A stretch of DNA of 45,023 bases from a virus. Location: IMG/VR virus record IMGVR_UViG_3300033064_001374, positions 1 to 45,023 of that record; one strand, written 5' to 3'. The notes beneath the pieces were generated by a model. That model was not told the DNA's origin, did no database searches, and saw only the letters and a list, made by a program, of their open reading frames with translations. Made by a program: the position numbers and the translations under genes. Shown in pieces: positions 3,121 through 30,098 of the stretch; the first letter of the stretch is position 1, and every line of letters begins with the position of its first letter.

Positions 3121-3195
3121 TACTCACAACTCCCCATCTTAATTTTTTAAACCCCTTTGTTTTCTTCTCTAACTCTTACTTAGAATATATCTAAG

Positions 3196-3236
3196 TAAAA
3201 ACTTCCAACCCCGGAGAAGGGGTGCGGGGTTGGAAG
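3196..3236 (-). terminator. Rho-independent terminator after the small gene upstream of portal
   Basis: A perfect 12-bp stem (CTTCCAACCCCG with its complement, 3202-3213 and 3225-3236) encloses an 11-base loop. Read on the minus strand the stem is followed by a T tract (the A run at 3197-3201). It separates the packaging genes from portal-scaffold-capsid and so may set lower or separate expression of the two parts. Confidence 0.8.
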
Positions 3237-3255
3237 CTTCTACAGTCTACTATAT

Positions 3256-3663
3256 TTAATCTGCTACTTGAGCAGGGTTCATACGTTGCTGGCGTCCACC
3301 TGAGCGGATTACCTCTTCAATAACAACCTGTGAATGATCACCGAAGTTACCTTGGGAAAACTCTGCGTTATAGGCTGGAGCCTCTGGCCATGCGGCTGAA
3401 CCGACATGTGCACGTTGTTTCATTGTTTCTTCTGGATACTTTTCAAACACGTTAACATTGTGGTTTGGACGACCCGCTGGGGTGTCATATCCTTGATCTA
3501 GTCCCAATTGAAAATCTTGTGGGACATCTGTGTCAGTTGCAATACCTTCTTCAAAGCGAAGTGGTCCGCGTTGTCCTGGTACTGATCCTGCCATCTTGCG
3601 TTCGTATGTTGCGCCAACCTTCTCAGGGAACTGAGGTGTTGGAGCAATGTTATCTACTGCCAT
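3256..3663 (-). CDS. Hypothetical protein between terminase and portal
   Basis: A 135-residue, Pro/Gln/Asn-rich product with no cysteine, membrane segment or recognisable domain. Its extended, low-hydrophobicity sequence resembles the small, probably disordered proteins found elsewhere in this window (for example near 34 kb). It begins MAVDNIAPTP after an AGGAGT site and is followed by a strong terminator. A minor virion role is possible from position, but nothing in the sequence proves it. Confidence 0.65.
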   Translation of the reverse strand: MAVDNIAPTPQFPEKVGATYERKMAGSVPGQRGPLRFEEGIATDTDVPQDFQLGLDQGYDTPAGRPNHNVNVFEKYPEETMKQRAHVGSAAWPEAPAYNAEFSQGNFGDHSQVVIEEVIRSGGRQQRMNPAQVAD

Positions 3664-3691
3664 GTTTACTCCTTATGCATAGGGATTGAGG

Positions 3692-3739: not shown

Positions 3740-5335
3740 TTAAGAAAAAAATGGGGAGGCACTTACTTCTACTGTAGGCATCACCATATCCTGGGTCATG
3801 GCACAAGCTATGGCTAGAGAGTCCACAAAGTCGTCGTGGGCGTGGGCTTCATCAGGAGCAGCCACTAAAAAGTTTGGCCCCTTGTACTGGACTTCTGCAT
3901 CAGTCATTTGTTGATAAAATTTCTTCCAAAGACGTAAACGACGAGTTTTTGCGTGAGCAGGCCAAGAAACCATCTGACGTTGGATTAGTGCTTGTAGGTG
4001 CTTCCATCTCTTAGATTGTTCCGAAGGACTTGATGTAATAGGGACTACTTCAGCTCTAGGCATGAGAACTTTCAAACGCCCAGCTACAGCATCTCCAACA
4101 CCGTTAGAGTCCACGCCGATTGCTAAAACGTCGTAGTTACCCAAGAAGTTAACAATCTGGAAATATTGCTCTTCCCAGTCATCTCCTTGAATTTCTAGCC
4201 AATTAAGAACACGATGGTCATAATAACCAAATTCATCAGGCCGATCCCAATCAACCCAAACAACAGTAACAACTGTAGAGTCCATCTTTCTTGCGGGGTC
4301 AATTCCAACCACAACTGGGGAACGGTGCCAACTCTTAACAAGTTCTTGAGACGTGTCTCCAAGCTCGTCCATAATCGTTGAGGTAAGAAACATACCCCTC
4401 TCCAAAAGCCACTTACAGTTGTACGACATCTGAAACTCATCTGAATCCTCTCCAACACGTAGCATCTCCTTTTTAATAAACTTTTCGTAGTTATCGTTAA
4501 ACTTTGCAACATCCCGCCAATCCCATTGGAAATGGTTTTGTTTGGCTGAACGTCCTGTTTGCCTACGCTTGTTTAATTGAATAGCCCTGTAAAAGTTATT
4601 CTTTGAAGTTGTAGGGGTACCGGTTTTAACAATAGTAGCGTTGTAGTAAGCACCCATTGGAGAAATTGACTTAGATACAACAAAGTCGTCTGCTTCTTGA
4701 CACTCATCAATAATAATTAAGTGGAAAGACTTAGACTCAATCTTTGCACGAGGGTTAGCTGTCATCATCATAAGCGTAGAGCCTGAGTTCTTTAACTTGA
4801 TGTTACGCACAACTCCAGGAGTTTTTGTAGCCATATCGTCGATCTCAGGATCTCCAAGAACTTCTAAGGCTCTTTCACTTGTAAGACGAGAAACAGTTCT
4901 ACCGTACAAGGTTTCTACCTGTGATTGGATGGGAGCAAACATACCTACCCAGATACCGTCTCCAAACTTACCTAGAAGTTCAGGGTACATCTTTGCAAGG
5001 CGTGGAAGGATAACCATCAGTGTTGCAACGGTATTAGCAATAGTCTCTGACTTACCTGACTGACGAGAGGCAAGTGCGGTTACTTCTTCACCGTCGTTAA
5101 TAATAACGGATTCAATAATTCGTCTAGCAAGAGGTTCCTGATAAGCGTGTAGCTTATGGCCCACTAGCATTTCCATAAAGGTCATGATCTTATTTATTAA
5201 GGCTTTTACAAACTCTTTAGATAGCTCGTCTAACTCATCCGGATCTTCTTCAGGCAGGTCGTCTTCTTCTAAACTTAATTCTTCATGGGGGTCTATTTCT
5301 TCAAATTGATCTTCGTCGTACTCAAAATCATCCAT
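3740..5335 (-). CDS. terL: Terminase large subunit
   Basis: The 531-residue packaging motor has both expected domains. ATPase: Walker A SRQSGKS at residues 90-96, Walker B LIIIDE at 206-211, and a coupling motif around GTPTTSK (239-245). Nuclease (RNase H fold): first Asp in VVVGIDPARK near 346, second in IGVDSNGVGDA near 409, and a C-terminal HDDFVDSLA near 500-508. It translocates DNA into the procapsid through the portal and cuts concatemers. The first 40 residues are strongly acidic. Its start overlaps the upstream gene by eight bases, indicating coupled translation. No obvious small terminase subunit is seen; one of the small upstream genes could fill that role. Confidence 0.95.
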   Translation of the reverse strand: MDDFEYDEDQFEEIDPHEELSLEEDDLPEEDPDELDELSKEFVKALINKIMTFMEMLVGHKLHAYQEPLARRIIESVIINDGEEVTALASRQSGKSETIANTVATLMVILPRLAKMYPELLGKFGDGIWVGMFAPIQSQVETLYGRTVSRLTSERALEVLGDPEIDDMATKTPGVVRNIKLKNSGSTLMMMTANPRAKIESKSFHLIIIDECQEADDFVVSKSISPMGAYYNATIVKTGTPTTSKNNFYRAIQLNKRRQTGRSAKQNHFQWDWRDVAKFNDNYEKFIKKEMLRVGEDSDEFQMSYNCKWLLERGMFLTSTIMDELGDTSQELVKSWHRSPVVVGIDPARKMDSTVVTVVWVDWDRPDEFGYYDHRVLNWLEIQGDDWEEQYFQIVNFLGNYDVLAIGVDSNGVGDAVAGRLKVLMPRAEVVPITSSPSEQSKRWKHLQALIQRQMVSWPAHAKTRRLRLWKKFYQQMTDAEVQYKGPNFLVAAPDEAHAHDDFVDSLAIACAMTQDMVMPTVEVSASPFFS

Positions 5336-5573
5336 TAGAGTGTCGCTTTACCAAAGACTCCAGAATAACGTGCAAAGCTTCTGCACCTATGCGGGCCTCT
5401 TCTAAAGAGGCAAGGTCTCTAGTTTTTTGCCAAGTAGAAAGATTACGACCAATTGTGTATAAGGCGTTTTCTGTCCAGGGCATTAAGTCTGATGTAGGTA
5501 GCGTCTCAACTCTTTTTTCTATACGAGACTTTTCCCTCTGTACCTTTTCTTTACGAAAATTAATGCTGATCAT
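5328..5573 (-). CDS. Small helical protein upstream of terminase (candidate small terminase role)
   Basis: I prefer the ATG at 5573, giving 81 residues (MISINFRKEK...), because TTGGAG sits seven bases upstream; a TTG at 5594 would add seven residues. The sequence is charged and predicted helical, with residues 10-25 very rich in Lys/Arg/Glu. It overlaps the terminase start by eight bases and the upstream gene by 14. Position next to the large terminase makes a DNA-recognition (small terminase) role conceivable, but no helix-turn-helix is evident. Confidence 0.6.
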   Translation of the reverse strand: MISINFRKEKVQREKSRIEKRVETLPTSDLMPWTENALYTIGRNLSTWQKTRDLASLEEARIGAEALHVILESLVKRHSNG

Positions 5574-5853
5574 CTTGTGCTCCAAATCTAACAAAGTCCC
5601 AGTTTATTTCTTCGTCTGGGAGATATCTACCCCGAATAGCATTGGTTAGTGCCTGGCTCTCATCATACGATGAATTCCACCGACCCACAACTAAAGCCAG
5701 TCTAGTGAACGGTAGTCGTATTGAAACTCCAACTCCACCCCTAAACGGTAAGGCTATTTCTTGAGTCTCAGCTCTTTCCCACAAAATTGGTGGCTTTACC
5801 GGATATACCAGTGTATGCCAATAAAGAGATCCAACAGTTCTTGGATTTGCCAA
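5560..5853 (-). CDS. Hypothetical protein, TTG start
   Basis: This 97-residue product starts at TTG 5853, eight bases after GAGGT; no ATG lies nearby. The sequence has alternating hydrophobic segments (GVGVSIRLPFTRLALVVGRW) suggesting a beta-rich fold and several Trp residues. It begins two bases after the stop of the preceding gene and overlaps the next by 14 bases, so it belongs to the terminase operon. No family recognised. Confidence 0.6.
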   Translation of the reverse strand: MANPRTVGSLYWHTLVYPVKPPILWERAETQEIALPFRGGVGVSIRLPFTRLALVVGRWNSSYDESQALTNAIRGRYLPDEEINWDFVRFGAQDDQH

Positions 5854-5855
5854 TC

Positions 5856-6116
5856 TTATACCTCACAGTCGTGTCCCATAACTTCTACTTCTCGTAGAGG
5901 TTCTAAACAAATTTTACACCGGTACCATCTTTGTACAGTAAAACTATTTTGAGCTGTTCCGCCAACAGGAACCTCTACACCACCATCAGGCTGTGGTTGA
6001 TAGTCTGAGATTACCTCAGGAGAATCAAACAGCTCGGGTGGGAATGGTCCCTTAGGCGAATGCGCAGTCTCAGGTACGGGATGCCCTTGTCTCGTAACTA
6101 TGCGCTCAATGCGCAT
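5856..6116 (-). CDS. Small protein with C-terminal Cys motif
   Basis: The 86-residue product has a Pro-rich N-terminal half and ends with WYRCKICLEPLREVEVMG followed by HDC. That CxxC plus H/C pattern in about 20 residues suggests a single zinc site. The ATG overlaps the stop of the preceding 50-codon gene by one base (TAATG), a sign of translational coupling. Function unknown. Confidence 0.6.
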   Translation of the reverse strand: MRIERIVTRQGHPVPETAHSPKGPFPPELFDSPEVISDYQPQPDGGVEVPVGGTAQNSFTVQRWYRCKICLEPLREVEVMGHDCEV

Positions 6117-6268
6117 TATTCTGCAGGCGCTTCAGTTGTCTTCTTTGTAGTTTTCTTTGCTTCTTCTACTACAGGCTCTACAACAGGTGTTTCTACTACA
6201 GGTGTCTCTACTACTACTGCTGGAGCTACAGATTCTTCTGTATTCCATGGTTTTGACCAAGTTGTCAT
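6116..6268 (-). CDS. Short Val/Glu/Thr-rich repeat protein, first gene of the packaging operon
   Basis: A 50-codon frame starts at ATG 6268 after AGAGG and ends in a TAATG overlap with the next gene. The product (MTTWSKPWNTEE at the start) carries repeated VVETP and VVEP units, then a Lys/Thr-rich tail (KKTTKKTTEAPAE). It looks disordered. As the first gene on the minus strand after the divergent region it should follow a promoter in 6270-6340, but I see no clear sigma-70 boxes. Function unknown. Confidence 0.6.
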   Translation of the reverse strand: MTTWSKPWNTEESVAPAVVVETPVVETPVVEPVVEEAKKTTKKTTEAPAE

Positions 6269-6299
6269 GTAATTTTCCTCTCGTTAGACAAAAAGATAT

Positions 6300-6480
6300 T
6301 CTACATGGGTTTCTTGGTTGCTGACCCCCTGTAGTTACTGCTACGGTATATCCATGGTTCAGGCATCTGGGCCATCACTAACTACGTAACAAAAGGGTTG
6401 CAGTACGAATCCGGCAGACATAGGCCGGGTTGCTTTATGCGGGTGACAGTCGCATAGGGTAAGAACTGGCCTTCTAGCCT
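6300..6480 (+). promoter_or_regulatory. Structured leader of the exported lysozyme-like gene
   Basis: About 180 bases before the GTG start hold no gene but several short hairpins: CTACA/TGTAG enclosing GGG/CCC (6301-6335), CCGGC with GCCGG (6411-6428) and ATGCG with CGCAT (6437-6455). The string GAATCCGGCAG at 6408-6418 resembles part of the conserved core of c-di-AMP (ydaO) riboswitches, which in Actinobacteria precede cell-wall hydrolase genes, but other conserved parts are not convincingly present. The promoter must lie in or before this leader. I treat it as an unassigned structured RNA. Confidence 0.4.
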
Positions 6481-6490
6481 AGGAGATAGT

Positions 6491-7033
6491 GTGAATAAAG
6501 ATGCAACTTCTCAAATTGCAATTATGGTGGCCTATTTAATGTTGATCTGTGGTATCCCCGCAGCTATGGCTACCGAACACATAAGTAAAGAAACCCCAAC
6601 ACAAACTATAGTAGAGGTCGTAGATCCACTCGACAGATACCGTGGGGCAACAGATCTGACTAATAGCGAGTTGAAAGACCTGCTATCCCTAGTTGGATTC
6701 AAAGGCAACAACCTAAAAGTAGCTTGGTCAGTAGTTATGAAAGAGTCCAGGGGTAACCCAGACTCACATAACAAGACTTCAGCCACAGGGGACAACTCTT
6801 ATGGACTATTTCAGATCAATATGTTTGGCGATCTGGCAGAAAGCCGTAGAGAGAAGTTCGGTATCAAAACCGACGTGGAACTATTAGACCCGGTAATAAA
6901 CGCTCAAGCAGCGTTCTACATGACTGGTAGGGGAACAAATTGGAGTTCTTGGGGTTACGGCCCTGAAGCTTACGATGGGGACCCTGAAGAACCAGGTATT
7001 ACTAAATGGTTTGATGATTTCACTAAAAATTAA
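6491..7033 (+). CDS. Exported lysozyme / lytic-transglycosylase-like protein
   Basis: The 180-residue product starts at GTG 6491 behind AGGAG. Residues 1-28 form a signal peptide (hydrophobic IAIMVAYLMLICGIP, cleavage likely after AMA). The mature part holds a lysozyme-like fold: VVMKESRGNPDS with probable catalytic Glu85, then YGLFQIN at 104-110 and GTNWSSWG near 152, the usual SLT/goose-lysozyme landmarks. It would cleave peptidoglycan glycan strands outside the membrane. It stands alone on the plus strand between two minus-strand blocks, far from the CHAP endolysin, with its own leader and terminator, so it is regulated independently. It could act in lysis, in release, or in host wall modification. 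Confidence 0.75.
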   Translation: MNKDATSQIAIMVAYLMLICGIPAAMATEHISKETPTQTIVEVVDPLDRYRGATDLTNSELKDLLSLVGFKGNNLKVAWSVVMKESRGNPDSHNKTSATGDNSYGLFQINMFGDLAESRREKFGIKTDVELLDPVINAQAAFYMTGRGTNWSSWGYGPEAYDGDPEEPGITKWFDDFTKN

Positions 7034-7041
7034 ATAATAGT

Positions 7042-7066
7042 AAAGGCCCGGGAGACCGGGCCTTTT
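7042..7066. terminator. Bidirectional rho-independent terminator
   Basis: AAAGGCCCGG pairs with CCGGGCCTTT around a GAGA loop (stem 7042-7051 and 7056-7065). T-rich sequence follows on the plus side and A-rich sequence precedes it, so it can stop transcription of the plus-strand hydrolase gene and of the converging minus-strand HNH gene. Confidence 0.85.
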
Positions 7067-7070
7067 CTAT

Positions 7071-7361
7071 TTACTTTTCGTTTTCTTTCTTACCAGCTCT
7101 TCGTTTATTCTCTTTTGCGGTGTTCTTACCATGCTTCAATGCCCTTAGGTTTCCCTTAGAGTCATTGCTGTGGTTGTTGTCCTTGTGGTCAACATCCGTT
7201 CCTCTAGGTAGTTTTCCGTTTTTAGATTCGTAATCGGCACGAGCCTTGTTTTTCGATGTTGTAACCCACTTACCGTTTACTTTTTTCTTGTAAACGTAGA
7301 TAGGGCGACCTCCATTCGCTTTGGAACCTTTGTAGGGACCAAACTTCTTTTCTTCAGCCAT
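7071..7361 (-). CDS. HNH endonuclease
   Basis: The ATG at 7361 is chosen because GGGAGA lies six bases upstream; an upstream in-frame ATG at 7382 has no such site. The 96-residue basic protein carries an HNH core in its second half, VDHKDNNHSNDSKGNLRAL, with the DH pair, the central Asn residues and the NLR signature, then a Lys-rich tail. Such small free-standing HNH proteins are homing-type nucleases or assist DNA packaging. Here it is the last gene of a structural block and not next to the terminase, so either is possible. Its start overlaps the previous gene by eight bases. Confidence 0.82.
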   Translation of the reverse strand: MAEEKKFGPYKGSKANGGRPIYVYKKKVNGKWVTTSKNKARADYESKNGKLPRGTDVDHKDNNHSNDSKGNLRALKHGKNTAKENKRRAGKKENEK

Positions 7362-7644
7362 TACTATCTCCCTTGCACGCACATGATGCGTTTAACTTAC
7401 CACAAGGACCGCAGGTAAAACGTTCGTGTGATTCTAAAGAACCTTGAGATTCCAAGGTATTTTCGTAGCTATGTACTTCTTTATAACTCTTGAGCTTAAC
7501 TCCATAAGTAGAGGAAGCGTTGACAACTTGAGGGTCATTCCAAGGACGTGCAGCTTTAGAGGTGCGATCTGTTACAGACATGCGTACAACGCCTCCCTGA
7601 CCGTCTCTGGAGCCGAAATGTAGGTCTTTCTTTGAACGTCCCAT
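7354..7644 (-). CDS. Small protein with C-terminal Cys cluster
   Basis: The 96-residue product is polar and mostly unstructured-looking, ending in CGPCGKLNASCAC, four cysteines spaced as in a zinc knuckle. It abuts the 60-codon gene upstream (shared base at 7644) and overlaps the HNH gene by eight bases. No family recognised. Confidence 0.6.
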   Translation of the reverse strand: MGRSKKDLHFGSRDGQGGVVRMSVTDRTSKAARPWNDPQVVNASSTYGVKLKSYKEVHSYENTLESQGSLESHERFTCGPCGKLNASCACKGDSNG

Positions 7645-7826
7645 TAGTTTGATGACTCCCCGCTAGCGCCTCGTCCAGGCTTCTTATAGAGGTCAAACTT
7701 AGGTGCGTCAGGTTGGGCGTACGGCAAGCCAGTTAAGTACTCGGCTGCCTCTCGTGCGTTGTGGCGCAGAGACTTATAACCATTAAACTTCTCAGGTTCA
7801 GGTGGGAAACTGGTTACTCTAGGCAT
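7644..7826 (-). CDS. Hypothetical 60-residue protein
   Basis: A short polar product (MPRVTSFPPEPEKFNGYKSL at the start) with Pro, Gly and Lys-rich ends and a short central helix. It starts two bases after the stop of the long 671-codon gene and runs into the next gene by one base, so it is an internal member of the operon. Function unknown. Confidence 0.55.
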   Translation of the reverse strand: MPRVTSFPPEPEKFNGYKSLRHNAREAAEYLTGLPYAQPDAPKFDLYKKPGRGASGESSN

Positions 7827-7828
7827 GA

Positions 7829-9844
7829 TTAGCTTTCAGTAGCTAGTTTTTTAGTGTTCTTCTTATCTGCTCTAGAACCTTCTGGTTGTTCAAACTGTGC
7901 GTCGTTTGCACCAGAGTATTCGCCTTCAACTGCAATAGCATCTTCTTTTCTTCCAAAGCGCTTCTTAGCATCTCCTTGAAGTCTCTTAGAGGCTTCAGAA
8001 ATTGGAACAATTGATCCAGCGGTTTCAAATGCATTCTTACGACCCTCTTTAACAGAGAAGTCTGGGAACATACTTGGTTGCACCATAGGCTTTGTTTTCT
8101 TAGTTTTCTTTCCAGAAGGAACTAAACCACCAGCAGCTTTAGCGGTGCGAAGGTCATCAAGGCCAGAAGTAGTCTCTGTAGGGGTAAACGTAGTGTCTAC
8201 TCCAATTTTTTGTCCAGGACCAGCTTGGTTTGAAGTAACGTCAACTTTAAACTGTTGTCCACGGTTTGGATTACTTTGAGGTTTCCAATCCCGGTCAGTA
8301 GGGATAGTACTTGTAGTACGTACGGCAGGTGTAGTTTCTACTTTTAGATAAAAATCTTCTAGCTTAAACTTGCTCTTGCCAACTTGAGTTCCCTCTAGTT
8401 CGTAAGCTCTCTTTTCAAGAGGACCACTTCCCTTAGTAATTTTTTCTGGGCTTACTTCTTCGCTTACTGTTCTAGGAACACCAGTTCCAGGAAGCTTATC
8501 CTGAACCATTCTAGGACCTTTAGCGTTAAAGTCTGGAAGATCTGTTGGTGGTTTTGATCCCAATAGAACTGTCCCACTCTTTGCACTTGGTGGCTTAGGC
8601 TTATCAAAAGCTCTAGGATTAGGAGTAGGTGCTACAGGTGTGTAGGTATATTCATACTTTTCATTTCCAAATCCTTCAGCAGCAACTTTTCTTTTTCCAG
8701 AACGCTTCATGCCACGAGGAACAGCACCACTAGCCACATCAGCAATGTCGTTAGCAACACTTGCACCTTTTTTACGAGAAGTGCTAGAAGAGCCATGCTC
8801 GTTTAACATTTGTACTCTTAAGTGATCGATTAGGTCTACGCCTTTTGTAGGGCCTGCGCTGTAACGTAGTACTTCCCGTCCGCCTTTTCCTCCACGAGTT
8901 TTTGTTTTATCCCAACCTCTGTAACCAGAATCAAGTACTTCTCTACCGTCAGCTCCACGAGTTATTTTATTTACTACTCCTTCAGATCTAGTAAACGAAG
9001 AAGGCATATCGGGATGATTTTCAGCTACTGGAATTATTGCTTTAGTTGTTGGATGCTCCCAGTATTCATTTCCACTTAGCGTGTGAGTCATATCTTTTTT
9101 AGAAGTCTCATGTTGTACAACTTTTCCATGCAACCCTGCAACATAAGCTGGTAGGCGCATACCTGCAGCACTTGAGGCATTCTTATAAACTTCTTCATCT
9201 CCAATGCCCATAACACGCATTACTCTTGAGTAACGTGCGTGATGTCCGCCGTATACTTGAACGTGGGTAGTTTTTGGAGTATCATCTGGTGAAACGTCGT
9301 TTACTACTTTTCCAGTAGTTTTAGCTGTTTGCAGATCACGTGCGTGTAGTTTTAACGCTAAATCTAAATCTCCGTTTTCTGATCCAGGAAGACCCATACC
9401 AGACTTCATGCGATCAATTACGTTTGAAGCAACTTCTGGTCGGTCTGTAGCGTTTGACGCTGCAGGCACAGAAGCACCTTCTGGTCGAGAAGGTAAAGTT
9501 CCAAAATTAAGTACGCCAGTTTTTTCTTTACGTCCAGTACCTACTCGACGCTTAGAGCGTCCAGTTTCTTTTCCTAAGCTAAGTGGTTCAACAGTTGGCT
9601 TAGCACGTAATATGTCTGGAACATCTGGATTCTTAGGTACAGAGCCGGCAGAAGGTAAACCCTCCATACGTGCAGTATTTCCTGCTTGGATAGAAGCGTT
9701 AGATGCGTCTTTTGATTGAGCAACAATTGTTTCATCTGCTCGTTGTGCATTTTTTTCTAAACCTTTTTTTACAACATCATTTTTTGTGCGGTCAAATTCG
9801 TTTCCGCTAGAATCTTTTCCAGTTTTTGAATTATCTTTAGCCAT
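7829..9844 (-). CDS. Long low-complexity protein of the structural block
   Basis: The 671-residue product is rich in Lys, Ser, Thr, Pro and Gly, has no cysteine and no membrane segment, and shows no recognisable enzyme motif. A central part (about residues 195-330, including VQVYGGHHARYSRVMRVMGI) looks folded; the rest is probably disordered with scattered short helices. Its start overlaps the stop of the upstream 217-codon gene (TAATG), and both share a disordered, Ala/Lys-rich style. Position in a late block favours a minor virion or internal ejected protein, but this is inference only. Confidence 0.6.
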   Translation of the reverse strand: MAKDNSKTGKDSSGNEFDRTKNDVVKKGLEKNAQRADETIVAQSKDASNASIQAGNTARMEGLPSAGSVPKNPDVPDILRAKPTVEPLSLGKETGRSKRRVGTGRKEKTGVLNFGTLPSRPEGASVPAASNATDRPEVASNVIDRMKSGMGLPGSENGDLDLALKLHARDLQTAKTTGKVVNDVSPDDTPKTTHVQVYGGHHARYSRVMRVMGIGDEEVYKNASSAAGMRLPAYVAGLHGKVVQHETSKKDMTHTLSGNEYWEHPTTKAIIPVAENHPDMPSSFTRSEGVVNKITRGADGREVLDSGYRGWDKTKTRGGKGGREVLRYSAGPTKGVDLIDHLRVQMLNEHGSSSTSRKKGASVANDIADVASGAVPRGMKRSGKRKVAAEGFGNEKYEYTYTPVAPTPNPRAFDKPKPPSAKSGTVLLGSKPPTDLPDFNAKGPRMVQDKLPGTGVPRTVSEEVSPEKITKGSGPLEKRAYELEGTQVGKSKFKLEDFYLKVETTPAVRTTSTIPTDRDWKPQSNPNRGQQFKVDVTSNQAGPGQKIGVDTTFTPTETTSGLDDLRTAKAAGGLVPSGKKTKKTKPMVQPSMFPDFSVKEGRKNAFETAGSIVPISEASKRLQGDAKKRFGRKEDAIAVEGEYSGANDAQFEQPEGSRADKKNTKKLATES

Positions 9845-12109: not shown

Positions 12110-12676
12110 TTAAGCCTCTTGTATGTGTGTATGAATCTCGCCACCCGAGTAGATGTCATGCTTGCAGGCGATTTCAATTGCCCGTCTCACAACCTTTTCG
12201 GCGGCCGCGGGTGTACTGATTTTTGAGTAGTTCAAAGCTTCAAGTGCGCCTAGTGCAACATCTCCACCACTACCAGCGTAGTAAACATTGCGGGCTTCTC
12301 TATCCCAAGAGTAGTCATTAAAGATCGGGTAGATGGTTCCTCTAATAGAAACAAGCAAGTTAGAGTCTTGCCATGCTGCATCGCCATCTTCTTTACCTTC
12401 AAAGCCTGCATCCTGGAAAGCTTTACGCATTGAGGGAATAAACTTCTTAGTAACAAATGTATCTAAATCAATAGTTGCACCTGGCTTTGGAGGTTTCCAA
12501 CCAAATTGAGTAATGTTTCCACCTCTAGAAGCGCCGGAGACAGCTATCAGTACACCGTTATTATTAACAATCTTAGATGTAGCAAGTTCCATATAGCGAC
12601 CATCTTCATCAGAGGCGCGGGAATCACAACCTATAACGGACCAACCATCACCTTGAATTGCAACAAGCGTAGTCAT
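12110..12676 (-). CDS. Proteasome beta-subunit-like Ntn hydrolase
   Basis: The 188-residue product begins Met-Thr-Thr, so Met removal exposes a nucleophilic Thr1 with no propeptide. Numbering from that Thr, D17-S18-R19-A20 match the 20S beta-subunit motif exactly; a Lys (TSKIV) falls at 34, one from the usual K33; SGASRGG fits the oxyanion-loop region; AGSGGDVALGALEAL fits the GSG around S129; and HDIYSGGEIH supplies the D166xxS169GG signature. HslV proteins lack this last motif, so the relationship is to true proteasome beta subunits or the related Anbu-type proteins. It is a probable protease lying among virion genes, just upstream of the Ig-repeat protein. It may process virion proteins or degrade host proteins. 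No ATPase partner is adjacent. Confidence 0.85.
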   Translation of the reverse strand: MTTLVAIQGDGWSVIGCDSRASDEDGRYMELATSKIVNNNGVLIAVSGASRGGNITQFGWKPPKPGATIDLDTFVTKKFIPSMRKAFQDAGFEGKEDGDAAWQDSNLLVSIRGTIYPIFNDYSWDREARNVYYAGSGGDVALGALEALNYSKISTPAAAEKVVRRAIEIACKHDIYSGGEIHTHIQEA

Positions 12677-17116: not shown

Positions 17117-17365
17117 ATGTTTTACATGAATGGAGAACAATTGTGTGCCCAGACAGACCAAGACATATTCTTTCCCGTTAGTAGAGGTGACCCAAATAAG
17201 AAACTAGCCTTTGCTATGTGCAATCGTTGCCCATTGCTTTCAGCGTGTAATGCATACGCTGAGAAAACACCAGGGCTGTATGGCATCTGGGGTGGCAAAG
17301 AATACTATGGCACAGGCTTTGTATCTGCTATGTCACATCAAGCAGGAAGGAAACTAAGTGCATGA
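17117..17365 (+). CDS. whiB-like: WhiB-family iron-sulfur transcriptional regulator
   Basis: The 82-residue product has the WhiB layout: Cys10, then FFP, then Cys35-x2-Cys38-x5-Cys44 that ligate a [4Fe-4S] cluster, followed by the G[I/V]WGG turn (GLYGIWGGKEYYG) that contacts the principal sigma factor. A short variable C-terminus follows; the usual basic AT-hook tail is weak (QAGRKLSA). WhiB proteins are confined to Actinobacteria and their phages and act by binding sigma region 4. Here it probably redirects host transcription or imposes exclusion. GGAGG precedes the ATG, and the stop overlaps the next start (ATGA). Confidence 0.93.
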   Translation: MFYMNGEQLCAQTDQDIFFPVSRGDPNKKLAFAMCNRCPLLSACNAYAEKTPGLYGIWGGKEYYGTGFVSAMSHQAGRKLSA

Positions 17366-20396: not shown

Positions 20397-20642
20397 ATGT
20401 CTATGTTTTTTCCAGACCACGACCACAATGACGACACGCCAGATTTTGAAAACCTGTCGCCTGTTGAAAAGCAAGAGTTCTATGACTATATTACGAAGCA
20501 AATGAATTTGATTATACAAAAAGCAGAAACACAGGGAGTGCTGTTTGATTTAATTACAAAATGGCCCCACGATAAGCAGGTAGCGTACGAGATGGCTACC
20601 GTAATTGAGAACCGCGTCCTAGAAGACGACGACGAACGCTAA
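20397..20642 (+). CDS. Small acidic protein upstream of the MoxR gene
   Basis: The 81-residue product has acidic ends (DHDHNDDTPDF at the start, EDDDER at the end) around a helical core (EKQEFYDYITKQMNLIIQKA). AGAAGGGA precedes the ATG. It lies 75 bases before the MoxR-like gene and could be an accessory of that operon. Family unknown. Confidence 0.6.
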   Translation: MSMFFPDHDHNDDTPDFENLSPVEKQEFYDYITKQMNLIIQKAETQGVLFDLITKWPHDKQVAYEMATVIENRVLEDDDER

Positions 20643-20717: not shown

Positions 20718-22160
20718 ATGGATATCGCTGTATTCACAGAGTCGTACGAACCAACCATGGGGGCTAAGCGCCGTCAGGTTCTTATCACTCCACATGATGG
20801 AAATGTACGAATCTACTCACGTGATACTGACGGGACTAAGGGTCCTCACAATAAGTGGGAGGAAACTGACCTCGACACTATCACTGGACAGATAGGTACT
20901 GATGAAAAGCTAACACGTGAACCTGTTGCTGTATATGTTACATCAGCAGACGAACGTGCTATGACGGACAAAGGTTATTCCCCGGTCCTCGGCACTAAGG
21001 CGTGTCAAGCACATACTAAAGCAGGACTCAACACGGATACTACGCCATTTGTAGATCGCTTATGCGAAATCTACGAAGCCGTAAGTAACCATGATGATTC
21101 TCTTGAGAACCATGTGATTGACAATCGTCGTATGCCAGGCTTACCTGTTCCGCTAGCGTCAGCACCAACACAAACAACGCCAGCACCTACCGCAACACCA
21201 TTTGTAGAGCCTGTTGTTCAAGCAACAAGTACATCAAACGGCGCAGTAATAACCGCAGCGCTTGCTTCAGTGCCCCGCATTGAACTAGCAAAACGTTATG
21301 TGCATCGTGAAATCTGGTCCCGCCAGGACTTTGAAATCTTTGATTACTCTCGTGCTAAAAGCATCAACGTTCTTATCTACGGCCCTACAGGCCCAGGTAA
21401 AACTACATCTGTTGAAGCGTGGGCTGCTGAACGCAATTTACGTATGGCAACAGTATCTGGTAACGCTTCAATGGAGCCAAGCCAAATGACTGGTAAATAT
21501 GTATCTGATGGCAATGGTTCATTCGCATGGATCGATGGCCCAGTTACTGACGTTGTGCGTAATGGTGGTGTCTTATTACTTGACGAGGTTAACTTCATCA
21601 GTCCTAAGATCTACACTGTTCTATATTCATTGCTAGATGGTCGTCGTTCTATCACACTGTTGGATCACCACGGTGAAACTGTTGAGGCTCATCCAGACCT
21701 CACTATCTTCGCTACTATGAATCCAGATTACATTGGTACAACGCCGCTCAACTTTGCATTCCGCAATCGTTTTGATATCCAGATTCCATGGGATTACGAC
21801 GATAAGGTCGAGTCTAAACTAGTCTCGTCCAAGGCTTTGCTTGTAGTTGCTAAACAACTACGCGTTGAGGCTAACAAAGGTCAATACGAGACACCAATCT
21901 CAACCAATATGCTTCAAGAGTTCGTCAACTTTGTTGACCCTCTAGGCTATGAGTTCGCAGTGGAAAACTTCATTGCTCACTTTAGTTCTGACGAAGCAGC
22001 AAGCGTTCGATTGGTATTTCAAACACATGAACACAATATCAAGACAGACTTTGGTATTGAAATCCCAGTAACTCTTGAGAAAGAGTCTGAAGGAAAATCT
22101 CCTGAAGAACAACTCAAGGAGTGGGCAGGTCAATACGGAGCAATTAACGGATTGGTATAA
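20718..22160 (+). CDS. MoxR-type AAA+ ATPase (CbbQ/CobS-like)
   Basis: The 480-residue product has an N-terminal domain (about 1-140), a Pro/Thr-rich linker (145-175) and an AAA+ domain. Key sites: Walker A GPTGPGKT at 222-229, Walker B LLLDE at 286-290, sensor 1 ATMNP at 332-336 and an arginine-finger region AFRNRF at 347-352. A stretch between Walker A and B (about 245-275) fits the MoxR insertion. MoxR ATPases form hexamers and work with a VWA-domain protein to remodel or activate a target. Here the VWA partner starts three bases after the stop. AAGGGG precedes the ATG. Cyanophages carry a CobS-like relative, but this protein has its own N-terminal domain of unknown type. Confidence 0.9.
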   Translation: MDIAVFTESYEPTMGAKRRQVLITPHDGNVRIYSRDTDGTKGPHNKWEETDLDTITGQIGTDEKLTREPVAVYVTSADERAMTDKGYSPVLGTKACQAHTKAGLNTDTTPFVDRLCEIYEAVSNHDDSLENHVIDNRRMPGLPVPLASAPTQTTPAPTATPFVEPVVQATSTSNGAVITAALASVPRIELAKRYVHREIWSRQDFEIFDYSRAKSINVLIYGPTGPGKTTSVEAWAAERNLRMATVSGNASMEPSQMTGKYVSDGNGSFAWIDGPVTDVVRNGGVLLLDEVNFISPKIYTVLYSLLDGRRSITLLDHHGETVEAHPDLTIFATMNPDYIGTTPLNFAFRNRFDIQIPWDYDDKVESKLVSSKALLVVAKQLRVEANKGQYETPISTNMLQEFVNFVDPLGYEFAVENFIAHFSSDEAASVRLVFQTHEHNIKTDFGIEIPVTLEKESEGKSPEEQLKEWAGQYGAINGLV

Positions 22161-22162
22161 CT

Positions 22163-24076
22163 ATGTACATTGAAGAACTAGAACAACACTGGGGTGATGC
22201 CCGGAGTGAAGATACACAAGAACGTTCTGTTCGACTCAATGCTCTTTGTAGAGTGTACGAACAGGCTGACCGTGTTCTTACTGGTGATCCAGTTACAGTC
22301 AATGTAGTTCCAGATGGCCCCGCACCAGCGTGGTCTGATGGCGCATCTATTTACATCAACCTCAATCAAATTGAGGACATGGACTTAGAAACATTGACAC
22401 AGGTTAACGGCCTCAATTACCATGAGCTAGCCCATCACCTGTACACGCCTCGCAAAGGCACAGAACTAATCAAGTGGGTCATCAGTAATAACTACTTCCA
22501 AGCCTTTAACATCTTGGAAGACCAACGCATCGAGACTCTCTTAATTGGTAGATACCCATCGATTGCACCATATCTAACAGCAACAGTTGCTCGTTGGCTA
22601 GGTTCATCAGAGGATGTCAATGGTAACTATGTCTGCATACGTGGCCGTCGTTACTTACCTGTTGAGATTAGACAAGCATTCCGTGACGAGTTTGCCTTCC
22701 CTGAACTAATCCCAGCAATAATTAGAATCGTAGATGAGTATCGATTGCTAGCGTTTCCACAAGGATACGCACGAGCACAAGAACTAATCGAACAGTTCTA
22801 CAATGAAGTATGCCTACCAATGGGCTTACTACCCGAGATGGATGGTGGCCCCAACAAGTGTGGTGGTCGTGATCCAGTATCAAAAGGCAGACCTGAACCT
22901 GGTAAGGCTCAGGAGAAAGACTCTCAACGAGCAGCAGGTATGGGAACTAAAGAATCTACTTACGTTCCTAAACCTAAACCTAGTGAGAGTCCATCTTCAG
23001 GTAACAACGAACAACCTGATGCGCCAACCAACACAAAACCAAACGGCGATGGTAATCAATCTAGTCCATCTCCTACATCTGTTCCAAAGACTGTTCAAGA
23101 AGCATTGGACATCAGAGAACAGAACATCACTACATCCTCAATAACCCCCGGAACAGGACATGCTCCTAGCCTAGGTGGCATACCAGATAGCATCAACGAT
23201 TTGCTTAACAAAGCAGTTGATGATGTGCTTGCACGTAAAGATGTACAAGCAGACGTCAAAACCAAACAACGTGTAATTGTTGGTGGAGATGGTAAACATG
23301 AGGATATAACCAAGAAAGGTAAATTCAACACCACAAGCGTTCCCCAAGAAGCAATAATCTCCTATCGCAAGTTTGCTAAGGAGTTACAGCGTCTACGTGA
23401 CGATTCAGAACCTACGTGGCAAAGAGAGACCCCTACCGGTCGACTCAATGTACAACGTGTAATCAGAGGTTGCGAAATTGATCAATCCTTTGATAGATGG
23501 GACGAAGGTGATGATGGCTGTGATATCGAAGCAGTTATCCTCGTCGATCGTTCAGGTTCTATGTCTAGTCAGCAGAATGATAAGAAAGCATCTATTGCTT
23601 GCTGGACTATCAAACGCGCCCTAGAACATATAGAAGCACCAGTTACAGTCTATGCATTTGATGACTCAGCTGAGGTTGCCTATACCCGCAAGGAACCTGC
23701 TCATAAGACTGAGTACAAGTTCATCTATGGTAATGGTACAGAACCGTATCCAACATTACTTGCTGCCGAGCAGTTACTTATGGCTTCGCGTAAGAAGAAT
23801 AAGATGCTGTTCATTGTTACCGACGGTGTGTTCAACACAAACAAAAACGATGAACTAATTGAACGCATCACACATCGTGGCATCCTAACGTCTATGATCC
23901 TTATCATGGACGATAACGATTGGAAATACTATGTCGAAGACCATAACCAGCTATCTAAAGAGCAGTTACGTCACAAAGCAGAAGTATTTGCACGCATTAC
24001 AAATGCTGCCGACTTACTCCCATTTGCTAAGCAAGTGGTAGTCAGTGCCATCAAAAAACGCTCGAGAATGAGATAG
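22163..24076 (+). CDS. VWA-domain protein with HExxH motif, partner of the MoxR ATPase
   Basis: The 637-residue product combines three parts. N-terminal: YHELAHHLYTPR at 86-97 contains HExxH (87-91), and 25 residues on NILEDQRIE (116-124) offers a possible third metal ligand, the pattern of VWA proteins of the CobT/CoxE type and of metalloproteases. Middle (about 230-335): Pro/Ser/Asn-rich linker. C-terminal: a von Willebrand A domain with MIDAS motif DRSGS at 462-466, a Thr in the FDDSAEVAYT region and TDG near 557. It should bind the MoxR ring through the VWA domain and deliver or act on a substrate. Whether the HExxH part is an active protease is unknown. Confidence 0.87.
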   Translation: MYIEELEQHWGDARSEDTQERSVRLNALCRVYEQADRVLTGDPVTVNVVPDGPAPAWSDGASIYINLNQIEDMDLETLTQVNGLNYHELAHHLYTPRKGTELIKWVISNNYFQAFNILEDQRIETLLIGRYPSIAPYLTATVARWLGSSEDVNGNYVCIRGRRYLPVEIRQAFRDEFAFPELIPAIIRIVDEYRLLAFPQGYARAQELIEQFYNEVCLPMGLLPEMDGGPNKCGGRDPVSKGRPEPGKAQEKDSQRAAGMGTKESTYVPKPKPSESPSSGNNEQPDAPTNTKPNGDGNQSSPSPTSVPKTVQEALDIREQNITTSSITPGTGHAPSLGGIPDSINDLLNKAVDDVLARKDVQADVKTKQRVIVGGDGKHEDITKKGKFNTTSVPQEAIISYRKFAKELQRLRDDSEPTWQRETPTGRLNVQRVIRGCEIDQSFDRWDEGDDGCDIEAVILVDRSGSMSSQQNDKKASIACWTIKRALEHIEAPVTVYAFDDSAEVAYTRKEPAHKTEYKFIYGNGTEPYPTLLAAEQLLMASRKKNKMLFIVTDGVFNTNKNDELIERITHRGILTSMILIMDDNDWKYYVEDHNQLSKEQLRHKAEVFARITNAADLLPFAKQVVVSAIKKRSRMR

Positions 24077-24085
24077 GAGGTAAAA

Positions 24086-24286
24086 ATGTACGTTGTATTT
24101 GACAATATAACTGAAACAATAATTGGACCGTTTAATGATTATGAAGATGCACAAATGTTCGTTTTACATGCATCAGACATAACTATTAATGATTATGTTT
24201 CAGATTTAACTATTGAACCTGTCTCTGAACCTCAGGAATGGGCTTTAGATAATGGCTTAGAATCAGAACTAGGAGTTCTAACATGA
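24086..24286 (+). CDS. Small acidic protein
   Basis: The 66-residue product (MYVVFDNITETIIGPFNDYE at the start) is acidic, with alternating strands and one helix. AGGAGG lies six bases before the ATG, ten bases after the VWA gene. The stop overlaps the next start (ATGA). No family recognised; possibly part of the MoxR/VWA operon. Confidence 0.65.
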   Translation: MYVVFDNITETIIGPFNDYEDAQMFVLHASDITINDYVSDLTIEPVSEPQEWALDNGLESELGVLT

Positions 24287-24432
24287 ACAATCAAGAAATG
24301 GCTGAACAAGATAAAGAAACATATGCGCAATACGAAGCTGCTACCCGCTTACTGTTAATCAAACATAATGCGGAAGACCTATTACCAATGCTAGGACTAG
24401 AGGAGGAAACAAATGAGCATGACCCTAGCTGA
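24283..24432 (+). CDS. 49-residue helical acidic protein
   Basis: The frame from ATG 24283 overlaps the previous stop by four bases and ends at TGA 24432, itself 20 bases inside the next gene. The product (MNNQEMAEQDKETYAQYEAA at the start) is a Glu/Gln-rich helix followed by an acidic tail. The AGGAGG serving the next gene is inside this one. Function unknown. Confidence 0.6.
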   Translation: MNNQEMAEQDKETYAQYEAATRLLLIKHNAEDLLPMLGLEEETNEHDPS

Positions 24433-24580
24433 TATGGATAAATTACAAGAGTTAATGTATAAATATCCTACGTTTGAAGAAACAAAATTAGTAATCGAAT
24501 CAGAGTTCCCTGGAGTTACAGTTCTTAGAACTGAAACAGGTATCTCTCTAAGAACAGAGGAAACTCTCTATGACGACTGA
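24413..24580 (+). CDS. 55-residue small protein
   Basis: ATG 24413 follows GAGGAGG by six bases; the frame ends at 24580, overlapping the next start. The product (MSMTLADMDKLQELMYKYPT at the start) has one helix then a beta-hairpin-like part (FPGVTVLRTETGISLRTEE). Tight overlaps on both sides show it is part of a translation-coupled chain. Function unknown. Confidence 0.6.
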   Translation: MSMTLADMDKLQELMYKYPTFEETKLVIESEFPGVTVLRTETGISLRTEETLYDD

Positions 24581-26520: not shown

Positions 26521-28551
26521 TTATTTATTATCTTTGATCAGTTTAACTTCACAATAATCAGTGGTGCAATATGCCTCTCCCACCGCATCAGCCGCCATAC
26601 CTGCGTATACACCGGCAAAGTCAATTGGGAACAACTTCATGCGAGCCTCTTCGTACTCACTCTCAGTGATCTGAGTGTAAGGCATCTGTGGATATACAGC
26701 GTTACCCATAGGCAAGAACGAAACAGTCTTAAGCTGACCGTCATGCATGTGAAGAATTGAAGCAATGGAGTCCGCTTCCTTCTCAGGGTCAAAGGTCACA
26801 GTTACAGATACAGAGTTGTCTGACCAGTAACGCTGTGTTACAACGGCAAGTGCTACCTTTTCGTGTACAGAAACTTCTTTCTCAGCACGCTTGGCATCGG
26901 TTTGGATAGGGAAGAACACAACAGAGGTTGTATCCGGTGATTCAGATGCTGGCTCTACCCGGTAGTTTGCCATTCTGAACAATGGGAGCATTGGGTCAGA
27001 GTTACCAAAGCGAATAGCTCTATTAAAGAACTTACCTCCGGATGCCCAGTGAACTCCTGGAGACTCTCCGGCAAGAATAGATACGGTGCCGGATGGCTTT
27101 ACAGTAGTCATCTTGATTGATTGACGAATACCTAGCCACTCAGAGTATGACTCGTCATAAGCCTTGACAGTTCCATAGCCTTCGTTCAGCCAGTCACGTA
27201 AGACAGTCCAACCGTTATTATCAGCAAAATTAGCAATACCAGAAACCGATGTTCCAATACGACGGTTACGTTGCATGATTGCATTGGTCTCCTCCCAGTG
27301 AGTAGGAAGAAGTGTCACAGTTTTGGCATACAGGTAAGCAAACTTCAAAGTCCTCTTAAAATCATCAAGTGAATCGTGCCTATTTAGGTAGGTTTCTACC
27401 AATGTACACATCTCAAAGGACTCAAGACTTTGCTCAGCGCATGGGTTGTACCCAGCAACACGCCAATCTTTATTGTTAGGTGGATCAATAAGCCGGCCGT
27501 ACTTGCGTGAAACGTCCATCCAAACAACGCCTGGTTCTCCATTCAAAACAATGCCATCAATGATCTTAGAGAAATCAGAGCCTACCTTTGCTTCTACAGA
27601 GTTGTTAGACATCCAGGCCCAACCGGGGTTCTTCGGATCATAAGAGTTACGCTCAGGGTATACCTCTGCATTTTTTAGATTGAGGAAGTCTTGGTCGTCA
27701 ATTCTGCCAATTAATAGTTCTGCTGAACGACGTACGTTGCCACTCACAACACAAACCCCGATTAGGTTGCCTATATCGGCAATATCCTTACGAGTTAACT
27801 TCTCACTTGCACGTCCGTCAAAGATATGGCGAATGTAATCGTGTAGTCGTTCTAGTGGTTCGTGTCCTGCTGCGGTTCCACCAAAGGTTTTGATTGGAGT
27901 GCCTGCTGGCCTAACCTCTTTGTAATCAAATACTGGAGCCTTGCTATCTGGCTTGAGGTAAGCATTGATGAGGGCTGTGACTGACTCGACCCATCCTTCT
28001 CGGGTATCTGGTACGACATATATATCTCCTTGAATTGGTTCGTAGATTGTGAAGTCCTTGTCGGCTCCCTTATCGTCGAACCCAACTCCGACTCCTAACA
28101 TTGATGCTTCCATTAAGAAAGAAAATGGTTTTGCTGGATTGAGTTTTGTCATTTCTGTAGTAGAAACAAAAGCACAATTCTGTAACGCAGCAGAGTTTCT
28201 CTGCTCATTGATAAGGGGTGTTCCCATCATCCATAGTCCACGGCCCGGTGGAGTCCACTTCAAATTAAACAACCGATCGTAAGCTTCTTTAGCAGAAGCC
28301 GCAGCCTTAGAGTCTGACCAAGGAAGTCGTTGAGATTTAGCGTGGTCTTTTTGAAGTGAGTACATGCCATTGATAACACGTTCGCATACTTCAACCCAAG
28401 TCTCTTTAGTGCCATCCTCTTTAAGACGAGAGTATGTTCTTAAGAAAGTAATTTCACCTACGCTATTACCTGCAGCATCTGTGTAACCCCAAGGAACAGT
28501 TTTATCTTTATATGAGTTGACGAAGTCTTCGGTTAATTTAAAAGAAAACAA
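26521..28551 (-). CDS. nrdJ: Adenosylcobalamin-dependent ribonucleoside-triphosphate reductase (class II)
   Basis: The 676-residue enzyme reduces ribonucleotides to deoxyribonucleotides using vitamin B12. It resembles the monomeric Lactobacillus leichmannii type: active-site cysteines in LQNCAFVS (Cys126), NPCAEQSL (Cys371 with Glu373) and FEMCTLVE (Cys382), an SGNVRRSAELLIG substrate region at 270-282, and the redox pair CTTDYC (662/667) at the C-terminus. The start is TTG 28551 behind AAGGG. It needs host cobalamin and a host thioredoxin. Supplying dNTPs for replication fits the deoxynucleotide kinase gene in the right-hand block. Confidence 0.93.
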   Translation of the reverse strand: MFSFKLTEDFVNSYKDKTVPWGYTDAAGNSVGEITFLRTYSRLKEDGTKETWVEVCERVINGMYSLQKDHAKSQRLPWSDSKAAASAKEAYDRLFNLKWTPPGRGLWMMGTPLINEQRNSAALQNCAFVSTTEMTKLNPAKPFSFLMEASMLGVGVGFDDKGADKDFTIYEPIQGDIYVVPDTREGWVESVTALINAYLKPDSKAPVFDYKEVRPAGTPIKTFGGTAAGHEPLERLHDYIRHIFDGRASEKLTRKDIADIGNLIGVCVVSGNVRRSAELLIGRIDDQDFLNLKNAEVYPERNSYDPKNPGWAWMSNNSVEAKVGSDFSKIIDGIVLNGEPGVVWMDVSRKYGRLIDPPNNKDWRVAGYNPCAEQSLESFEMCTLVETYLNRHDSLDDFKRTLKFAYLYAKTVTLLPTHWEETNAIMQRNRRIGTSVSGIANFADNNGWTVLRDWLNEGYGTVKAYDESYSEWLGIRQSIKMTTVKPSGTVSILAGESPGVHWASGGKFFNRAIRFGNSDPMLPLFRMANYRVEPASESPDTTSVVFFPIQTDAKRAEKEVSVHEKVALAVVTQRYWSDNSVSVTVTFDPEKEADSIASILHMHDGQLKTVSFLPMGNAVYPQMPYTQITESEYEEARMKLFPIDFAGVYAGMAADAVGEAYCTTDYCEVKLIKDNK

Positions 28552-28589
28552 AGTATTACCCTTCTCTAAAATATTGTGTAGTTACATAA

Positions 28590-30098
28590 TTAGTCTATGT
28601 GATCAGAGATTATTCTAGTGGTATTTTCCTCAGAAATCCCACCGTTCGGTATCTCCTTCAAGGCGTTAGCTTTATCACCAAAGAGTGCTGACAGTACACC
28701 ACCAGAGGTTTGACGTTCTACGGTCATTCTTACAAATTCCTTGTTTTCCTCAAGTTCTTTCAAACTCTTAACGATCTTAAATAGTCTATCAATCTCTTGC
28801 CCAGTGTTAGGATCCGGGTACCCGCCATTTAGTTCTTCAGCAAATCTAGCAAATGCAACACGTGCACCTTGCATCTCAATGATGGCATTTAACAAACCCT
28901 TAAGTTGGTCTTTAGTCTTAATTTCAACAGGCAAATTAAAAGCACAAGAATTCTGTGGTTTAAATGCGGGGCAATTAGCAGCAACAAAACATGTATCGCA
29001 TTGTCTTAAAGATACAGAGGTAGTTTCAAGCACTGGAACGTCTCTTATCAGGTCTCGTCCATCGCTATCTTTATCAATAACTGTCTTAGTATTTACTGAA
29101 AAAACAGGCAAAGTACGTATTTCTGATGCATCTCTAACTATAACCTTAGTAGGTTCAAGGGCAGAATCTTTCCGCACCTCGAGTGCACTGTTATCAGGTT
29201 CTATGCCTAGTGTTTCCGCAGAACCTGGGTCATCTATGTGCGTGCTGTTATCAGATAACTTCTCGCCATCTACTACTGTTAGGTGTGGCGGTTTCTTTTT
29301 ATCCATTGATTTCTCCAGCTCCAGGTACGACCATATTGCGAGGCGAGTTACCTCATTACTATCATCATTAATAATCTTATCGAAGTCTAAGCCAGCCTTG
29401 TTTATAACATTTTTATAACGGGGGCGTGCTTGGTCTTTCTGTTTCTTTTGGTATCGCACCAGTCTAGTGGTATCCCAAACTATTGTCTCACCACGCATCA
29501 TTGGAGATAACCACGACAAAGTGCTTGCAGTCTCAAAAGGTATCTGTCGTAAGTTGTCTGGTTTGGCGCAAGCGATACCGTGGAACTTGGTGCCCAGTTG
29601 GCCCTGTAGGGCCCGTGTGCGCCCTGCTAGGGTCGTATCGCTATCTATGGTGGTTCCTAGTATGGCAACGTTCTCCCAGTTATCACAGAGAGCAAACAAA
29701 GCCCTATGCCCCATTTCAGGATTCCATACTGGCCAGTATTTACTTTCTAGTTCCCACCCAATAGTCTTACGCTGTTTTTCGATCCAGGTAGATCCGAGCA
29801 CTGGGGAATCAAACTCAACTACTCCCTCAATACGGTCATAGTTAGTTGCAATGAAGTCTTCATAGTCCGCGGCAAACTCTTCAGCTTCCCGGGTGGATAA
29901 GGTGGCGGTGGCGGCGGTTCCTGCAGTAAGGTAGATTTTTACGTCATCTGGGTACTTCTCTGATAATAGATAGGTTTTGCTTTTAGGTAGCCCACGTTTA
30001 CGCAAGCCCCAAAAGCTAACACTGACATGCTTGACTCCAGCATCAATTAACAATAATCTATGAGACGGTATCTCTCCGCCCATGAAAACTATGCTCAT
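28590..30098 (-). CDS. TIM-barrel protein resembling tRNA-guanine transglycosylases (DpdA-like), with C-terminal four-Cys unit
   Basis: The 502-residue product begins with a barrel-like region: HVSVSFWGLRKRG, KIYLTAGTA, VVEFDSPVLGS (Asp97), PVWNPEMG, VAILGTTIDSD, KFHGIACAKPDNLRQIPF and TLSWLSP. The order of strands and the HG, SW motifs recalls TGT-type enzymes including phage DpdA, which insert 7-deazaguanine bases. The C-terminal third has CDTC-x5-CPAF-x5-C (Cys367, 370, 376, 385), possibly a zinc or Fe-S site, then a helical domain. No preQ0 synthesis genes lie in the window. The stop and start of neighbours overlap by four bases. Treat the enzyme call as tentative. Confidence 0.45.
   Translation of the reverse strand: MSIVFMGGEIPSHRLLLIDAGVKHVSVSFWGLRKRGLPKSKTYLLSEKYPDDVKIYLTAGTAATATLSTREAEEFAADYEDFIATNYDRIEGVVEFDSPVLGSTWIEKQRKTIGWELESKYWPVWNPEMGHRALFALCDNWENVAILGTTIDSDTTLAGRTRALQGQLGTKFHGIACAKPDNLRQIPFETASTLSWLSPMMRGETIVWDTTRLVRYQKKQKDQARPRYKNVINKAGLDFDKIINDDSNEVTRLAIWSYLELEKSMDKKKPPHLTVVDGEKLSDNSTHIDDPGSAETLGIEPDNSALEVRKDSALEPTKVIVRDASEIRTLPVFSVNTKTVIDKDSDGRDLIRDVPVLETTSVSLRQCDTCFVAANCPAFKPQNSCAFNLPVEIKTKDQLKGLLNAIIEMQGARVAFARFAEELNGGYPDPNTGQEIDRLFKIVKSLKELEENKEFVRMTVERQTSGGVLSALFGDKANALKEIPNGGISEENTTRIISDHID

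Follow-up and report, generated by a model that had tools for sequence, protein, structure and literature searches.

A phage MoxR-type AAA+ ATPase paired with a metallopeptidase-like VWA protein: a candidate remodeling machine of the replication phase

Two adjacent genes of a viral genome (IMG/VR record IMGVR_UViG_3300033064_001374; the window is the whole stretch analyzed, 45,023 nucleotides) encode a MoxR-type AAA+ ATPase and a VWA protein whose N-terminal domain is predicted to resemble small zinc metallopeptidases. The explanation that we consider best, giving it about an even chance of being right, is that the pair forms a remodeling machine of the replication and dNTP phase, in which the AAA+ ATPase acts with a metalloprotease-type VWA partner. 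The conservation of the motifs and of the adjacency of the two genes is well beyond chance, and the protease site in the lineage of the window looks intact and strongly constrained at the sequence level. The architecture is already known: in group 2.2 jumbo phages a MoxR protein and a vWA protein with an N-terminal metallopeptidase have been described, with a proposed function in virion assembly (PMC7824862). The window has the same phage-borne arrangement, an N-terminal metallopeptidase-like domain fused to vWA beside MoxR, but belongs to ~100-kb phages with probable actinobacterial hosts, and the two systems are likened by architecture alone. What is added here is the breadth of the distribution, the contrast with CobT, the lineages that have lost the site and the replication neighborhood.

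Results

The AAA+ gene and the VWA partner gene are intact and adjacent

The two genes and their parts are located as follows.

20718..22160, plus strand: MoxR-type AAA+ ATPase, 480 aa; Pro-rich linker and clade-specific N-terminal region at about residues 1-185, AAA+ core at about residues 190-450
22163..24076, plus strand: metallopeptidase-like/VWA partner protein, 637 aa
22163..22966, plus strand: N-terminal gluzincin-like domain, residues 1-268
22421..22435, plus strand: HELAH at residues 87-91, with H87 and H91 as putative zinc ligands and E88 as putative general base
22508..22534, plus strand: NILEDQRIE, residues 116-124; E119 or E124 is the proposed third metal ligand
22940..23197, plus strand: flexible Pro-rich linker, about residues 260-345, with low pLDDT and relaxed selection
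23480..24073, plus strand: VWA domain with a full MIDAS (D462xS464xS466, T526, D554)

A preliminary description of this DNA had reported two ORFs separated by 2 bases, with HELAH, NILEDQRIE and DRSGS in frame, and an ATPase with intact Walker A, Walker B, sensor 1 and Arg-finger motifs; all of this was confirmed. The AAA+ ORF is intact at 20718-22160, as given there, and so is the VWA partner ORF, whose ATG lies 2 bases past the AAA+ stop codon and whose DRSGS occupies residues 462-466. The AAA+ protein matched Pfam AAA_5 (E=1.1e-21) and a PHROG family named 'porphyrin biosynthesis' (1.5e-48). Walker A (GPTGPGKT, K228), Walker B (E290), sensor-1 N335 and the Arg-finger region (A347/R351) were invariant in 15 divergent phage homologs, as expected for a MoxR-type ATPase with these elements in an AAA_5/AAA_3 domain. 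A nucleotide-level phage search with the window returned no matches. In the partner protein the sole Pfam model matched was a VWA model, and weakly (VWA_2, E=1.5e-4), and a PHROG 'peptidase' family matched at the N-terminus, over residues 87-134 (2.6e-6).

Relatives were collected from viral contigs in a first scan (15 loci, 60-91% identity) and in a profile scan (80 loci, identity down to about 30%). Among 42 aligned VWA partners, H87, E88, H91, E119, D120, R122 and E124 were all invariant, as were the MIDAS residues D462, S464, S466, T526 and D554; since the IMG/VR relatives were gathered by patterns containing LEDQRIE or [VLA][NTD]GLNYHE, motif conservation there arises partly by selection, H91 lying outside the patterns of the 80-locus scan. 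For this reason, phages reached via the AAA+ protein served as a second sample, and here too both HExxH and the second motif were present. HExxH was found in all 11 of these phages whose VWA partner was found, namely Cantare, DalanDe, GMA6, DSL-LC01, GodonK, Forza (with the LDELRCE variant of the second motif), GMA2, P-HM1, S-PRM1, Rhizobium Y2_11 and Mae-Yong. The AAA+ gene was directly upstream of the VWA gene in 47/47 relatives, usually by ~10 bases, which is the adjacency typical of two-component MoxR/VWA systems and bears out the suggestion that the pair would be kept in related phages. When the protein was compared with its near relatives, dN/dS was about 0.07-0.13 in the N-domain, indicating strongly purifying selection, 0.05-0.08 in the VWA domain and about 0.1-0.4 in the linker.

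The N-terminal domain is predicted to resemble minigluzincins

AlphaFold2 modeled the whole VWA partner with a pLDDT of 82.6 and the N-domain (1-268) with a pLDDT of 91.3 and a pTM of 0.89. In the N-domain model HExxH is part of helix 75-94, and the long helix after it, 112-130, carries LEDxRIE. Segments 279-305 and 324-340 of the model were of low confidence and coincide with the Pro-rich linker, which fits the flexible linkers proposed earlier. In a Foldseek search of the PDB with the N-domain, the top four matches were minigluzincins (selecase, abylysin) and zinc metallopeptidases made up the majority of the 40 matches listed; none of the matches reached E<0.001, no single one being significant, and because the minigluzincin matches had E-values of 0.5-6 they indicate resemblance only. 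A sequence-profile search of the PDB with the same domain did not find a metallopeptidase. Against predicted viral structures, the N-domain matched VWA proteins of phage and haloarchaeal-virus origin, several of them named CobT, 12 at E<=0.001. Like the minigluzincins abylysin, jannalysin and selecase, the window protein combines HExxH with a downstream Glu, the motif arrangement of gluzincins and minigluzincins, but its N-domain is fused to a linker and a VWA domain. The possible metalloprotease domain of the preliminary description is thus consistent with the modeled placement of the two motifs on adjacent helices and with the ranking of the structural matches. DUF2201_N (PF13203), which we take to be another HExxH/VWA family, was also considered; it did not match the window protein and gave nothing above the cut-off in 60 Pseudomonadota genomes.

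HExxH pairs are widespread, and some lineages keep the pair without the motif

HExxH pairs were seen in actinophages, cyanophages, SSU5-like phage-plasmids, Vibrio phage ICP2, a haloarchaeal virus and plasmids. The partners of SSU5, ICP2, CRP-810, HVTV-1 and Woes carry HExxH, and a pair with the motif is also present on two Streptomyces plasmids and one haloarchaeal plasmid. In the scan of the genome collection, cellular relatives were limited to two contigs, both from MAGs and each with an HExxH pair. The same AAA+/HExxH-VWA pair is encoded at 2073-3680 and 1090-2082 on a short contig from a Propionibacterium MAG (L113).

HExxH is missing from the partner in Acinetobacter pABTJ2 (QEVAK), BUCTxx99 (REVST) and nickie, which retain the pair, indicating that proteolysis is not universally required. 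These losses, together with the lack of HExxH in all true CobT proteins examined, would agree with a remodeler that does not cleave, in which the zincin-like domain does no more than bind or give structure and HExxH holds a metal. We nevertheless consider this improbable for the window, where the HExxH site is invariant in the clade among VWA proteins diverged down to 30% identity. These three CobT-like partners that have lost HExxH, from one phage-plasmid and two phages, were located at 6001-7923 (L115), 3992-5977 (L153) and 3974-6058 (L151).

Staphylococcus, Listeria and Mycobacterium phages have a homologous AAA+ gene with, close behind it, a gene for a DUF7192 protein instead of an HExxH-VWA protein (DUF7192-type loci: L025, 6811-7656; L026, 6755-7600; L028, 3938-4765). 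Because of this neighbor, these AAA+ homologs were treated as a different branch and left out as pair members.

The window pair differs from cobaltochelatase CobS/CobT

Pairs of this kind are usually annotated as CobS/CobT (cobaltochelatase), and CobS/CobT-like pairs had been among the models named for the window. According to this explanation, the pair replaces the ATPase subunits of cobaltochelatase, uses a host CobN-type subunit and boosts cobalamin for a phage class II ribonucleotide reductase (RNR). Such a B12 helper function through host CobN has been proposed for viral CobST of archaeal viruses (PMC8651126), and a B12 role has been proposed for cyanophage cobS (PMC2984593). The PHROG name of the AAA+ protein and the class II RNR genes described below are in line with it, as is the occurrence of CobN in 44 of the 53 Pseudomonadota genomes (200 scanned with PF06213) that have a CobT match. 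The nine genomes with a CobT match and no CobN match, which may be incomplete, were G036, G044, G103, G106, G143, G151, G171, G179 and G206.

Several results argue against this function. The CobT models PF06213 and PF11775 did not match the window VWA protein up to an E-value of 0.1. HExxH was absent from the corresponding place, which reads like DSMALR, in all 25 true cellular CobT proteins examined (0/25), whereas it is invariant in the relatives of the window; this makes the B12-enzyme label doubtful for such pairs. An EQxRxE-type motif was still present in most of the 25 CobT proteins, so the Glu residues of the second motif may serve another role, a point against the metalloprotease-type partner that we favor. 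When the phage N-domain was aligned with true CobT by hhalign, LEDQRIE fell on VEQARVE, the overall alignment not being significant (E=0.03). In the AAA+ tree, 12 true CobS proteins formed one fully supported clade far from the clade of the window, and proteins with HExxH partners fell on both sides of it, in a tree built by a quick method, unrooted and with some long branches. Thus the window pair shares with CobS/CobT the two-gene AAA+ and VWA layout and an alignable second motif, but its AAA+ protein stands outside the CobS clade and its partner has the HExxH that true CobT lacks, and the CobS/CobT-like model was not supported. CobN was found in none of 23 pair-bearing virus records, and SSU5-type pairs occur in E. 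coli, whose control genome showed neither CobT nor CobN. Moreover, GMA6, DalanDe and Cantare, the nearest isolates that carry the pair, have no RNR detectable with PF02867 or PF21995. Taken with the points in its favor, we regard the cobaltochelatase function as unlikely.

One SSU5-type phage-plasmid protein matches PF06213 strongly (3e-27) yet keeps HExxH, and thereby forms a bridge between the window-type partners and CobT. A further PF06213 match, in genome G043, contains HECGH...LEDPRVE; its low score (33.5 bits) and its primase-like neighbor suggest a copy carried by a mobile element. From these sequence comparisons, the simplest reading would be that an intact HExxH is the ancestral state, with losses on more than one occasion, one of them in CobT.

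Two other systems resemble the window pair. NorQ/NorD is also an AAA+/VWA machine, and NorD in NorQ-NorD complexes was the best PDB match of the full VWA partner model (E=2.4e-7), but the single NorD-like protein checked lacks HExxH. No nitric oxide reductase genes were present among the identified neighbors of the window pair. In cyanophages, genes annotated 'cobS' and 'peptidase' lie within a few kb of each other, and the 'peptidase' combines HEVGH...TEDxRIE with a VWA MIDAS; by contrast with the window, the gene order is reversed, genes intervene in S-PRM1 and the AAA+ protein is in a different branch. The 'peptidase' label of cyanophage cobT has been called a mistake (PMC8651126); the motifs suggest that it may be the better label of the two.

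A class II RNR is linked to the pair in the group of the window

The preliminary description saw no obvious substrate gene adjacent to the pair. A candidate client is encoded on the opposite strand, 2.4 kb downstream.

26521..28551, minus strand: class II (B12-dependent) ribonucleotide reductase, convergent neighbor of the pair

Class II RNR was encoded by DSL-LC01 and by each window-like IMG/VR genome that was tested (23/23). An RNR gene lay within 8 kb of the pair on the opposite strand in 40/47 relatives, a contig end cutting 4 of the remaining 7, and the linkage held in the clade even where the VWA protein had diverged to about 30% identity. Shared ancestry alone may explain this linkage within the group of the window. 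Because of the short distance, a B12 or RNR role stays a live rival.

MoxR/VWA pairs commonly target metal-cofactor enzymes, and CbbQ/CbbO, which reactivates Rubisco, offers an analogy: the pair could be an activase or cofactor chaperone of the phage class II RNR, loading cobalamin or replacing damaged cobalamin. The persistence of the linkage at low identity speaks for such a role. However, GodonK, Forza, GMA2 and Mae-Yong, like the three isolates named above, have the pair and no RNR by the same two models; the RNRs of cyanophages and of a Rhizobium phage lack the class II insertion domain; RNR and pair are convergent and hence not one operon; and the conserved protease motif would be left unexplained. 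An RNR activase therefore seems to us an improbable function for the pair.

The minus-strand stretch 26521-30098 comprises the RNR gene and then a gene for a PHROG 'queuine tRNA-ribosyltransferase' family protein, possibly a 7-deazaguanine DNA-modification enzyme; both are strongly conserved in relatives.

Most lineages examined place the pair near genes of replication and nucleotide metabolism

In Gordonia and Brevibacterium phages the pair sits between primase/DnaB and DnaE, and in SSU5, nickie, BUCTxx99, Rhizobium Y2_11 and pABTJ2 DnaE follows close behind it. Primase and helicase genes are downstream of the pair in ICP2, clamp and clamp-loader genes come after it in cyanophages, and DNA ligase is also among the replication genes near pairs across the lineages examined. 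The neighborhoods of GodonK, Forza and GMA2 include MazG, methyltransferase, dUTPase or thymidylate synthase. In DSL-LC01, HVTV-1, Woes and CRP-810 the connection with replication genes is weak or missing. Phage replication genes cluster anyway, so these neighborhoods are weak evidence; they favor a role in replication or nucleotide metabolism over one in virion assembly.

The latter function, in which the pair is a chaperone and protease for structural proteins, is the one put forward for the jumbo-phage architecture. It is at odds with the position of the pair near replication and nucleotide genes instead of head and tail genes in most lineages examined, and in the window with the location of the portal and terminase genes, on the opposite strand at a distance of 15-18 kb. 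Plasmids carry such pairs too, though those stretches may be phage-derived. We thus think virion assembly unlikely. A similar assembly role has reportedly been seen for an archaeal virus tail, in a system without the protease domain.

The small genes at 20397 and 24086-24580, which had been put forward as possible adaptors, found no support: they are conserved only inside the phage clade of the window, and the gene at 20397 is absent near the pair in several clade members.

Discussion

Of the preliminary interpretation as a whole, the MoxR/VWA pair, the possible protease domain, the linkers and the recurrence of the pair were upheld, while the adaptors and the CobS/CobT model were not supported. 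In the replication-phase remodeling machine that we favor, the two gene products would form one physical complex, in which an ATP-driven MoxR-type AAA+ ring partners a VWA adaptor. The adaptor would pick out the client via its MIDAS metal site and carry at its other end a minigluzincin-like domain that may bind zinc. The ATPase would probably unfold the client complex or pry it apart, and the attached protease-like domain could then cleave or grip part of the client. Since most lineages examined have related pairs close to genes of replication and nucleotide metabolism, the client would most likely be a protein, of host or phage origin, that belongs to the DNA replication or dNTP phase and not to the virion.

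More tentatively, and with clearly less confidence than for the machine itself, the pairs of mobile elements could represent an ancient replication-phase remodeling protease of which CobT is a dead-site derivative, the viral cobS/cobT genes, including those of cyanophages, then being misnamed. For well over ten years cyanophage cobS has been regarded as a gene for vitamin B12. Should the partner prove to be a functional metalloprotease, viral cobS and CobST annotations and the ecological inferences derived from them need revision; in that case, mutation of HExxH would directly probe the role of these very common phage genes, and the motor subunits of cobaltochelatase would seem to share ancestry with a mobile-element protease machine. 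In the literature searched, phage-plasmid, SSU5 and cobT were not found treated together, and the one paper naming CobT, metallopeptidase and vWA was silent on such a pair.

The host of the window virus is probably actinobacterial, given that the nearest isolates are Gordonia and Brevibacterium phages and that the window contains a WhiB-like transcription factor gene (17117-17365, plus strand; PF02467, E=2.3e-12). Another gene of the window, at 12110-12676 on the minus strand, encodes an HslV/proteasome-family (Ntn hydrolase) peptidase of 188 aa, perhaps a prohead protease, with 77-97% identity among those relatives that extend that far.
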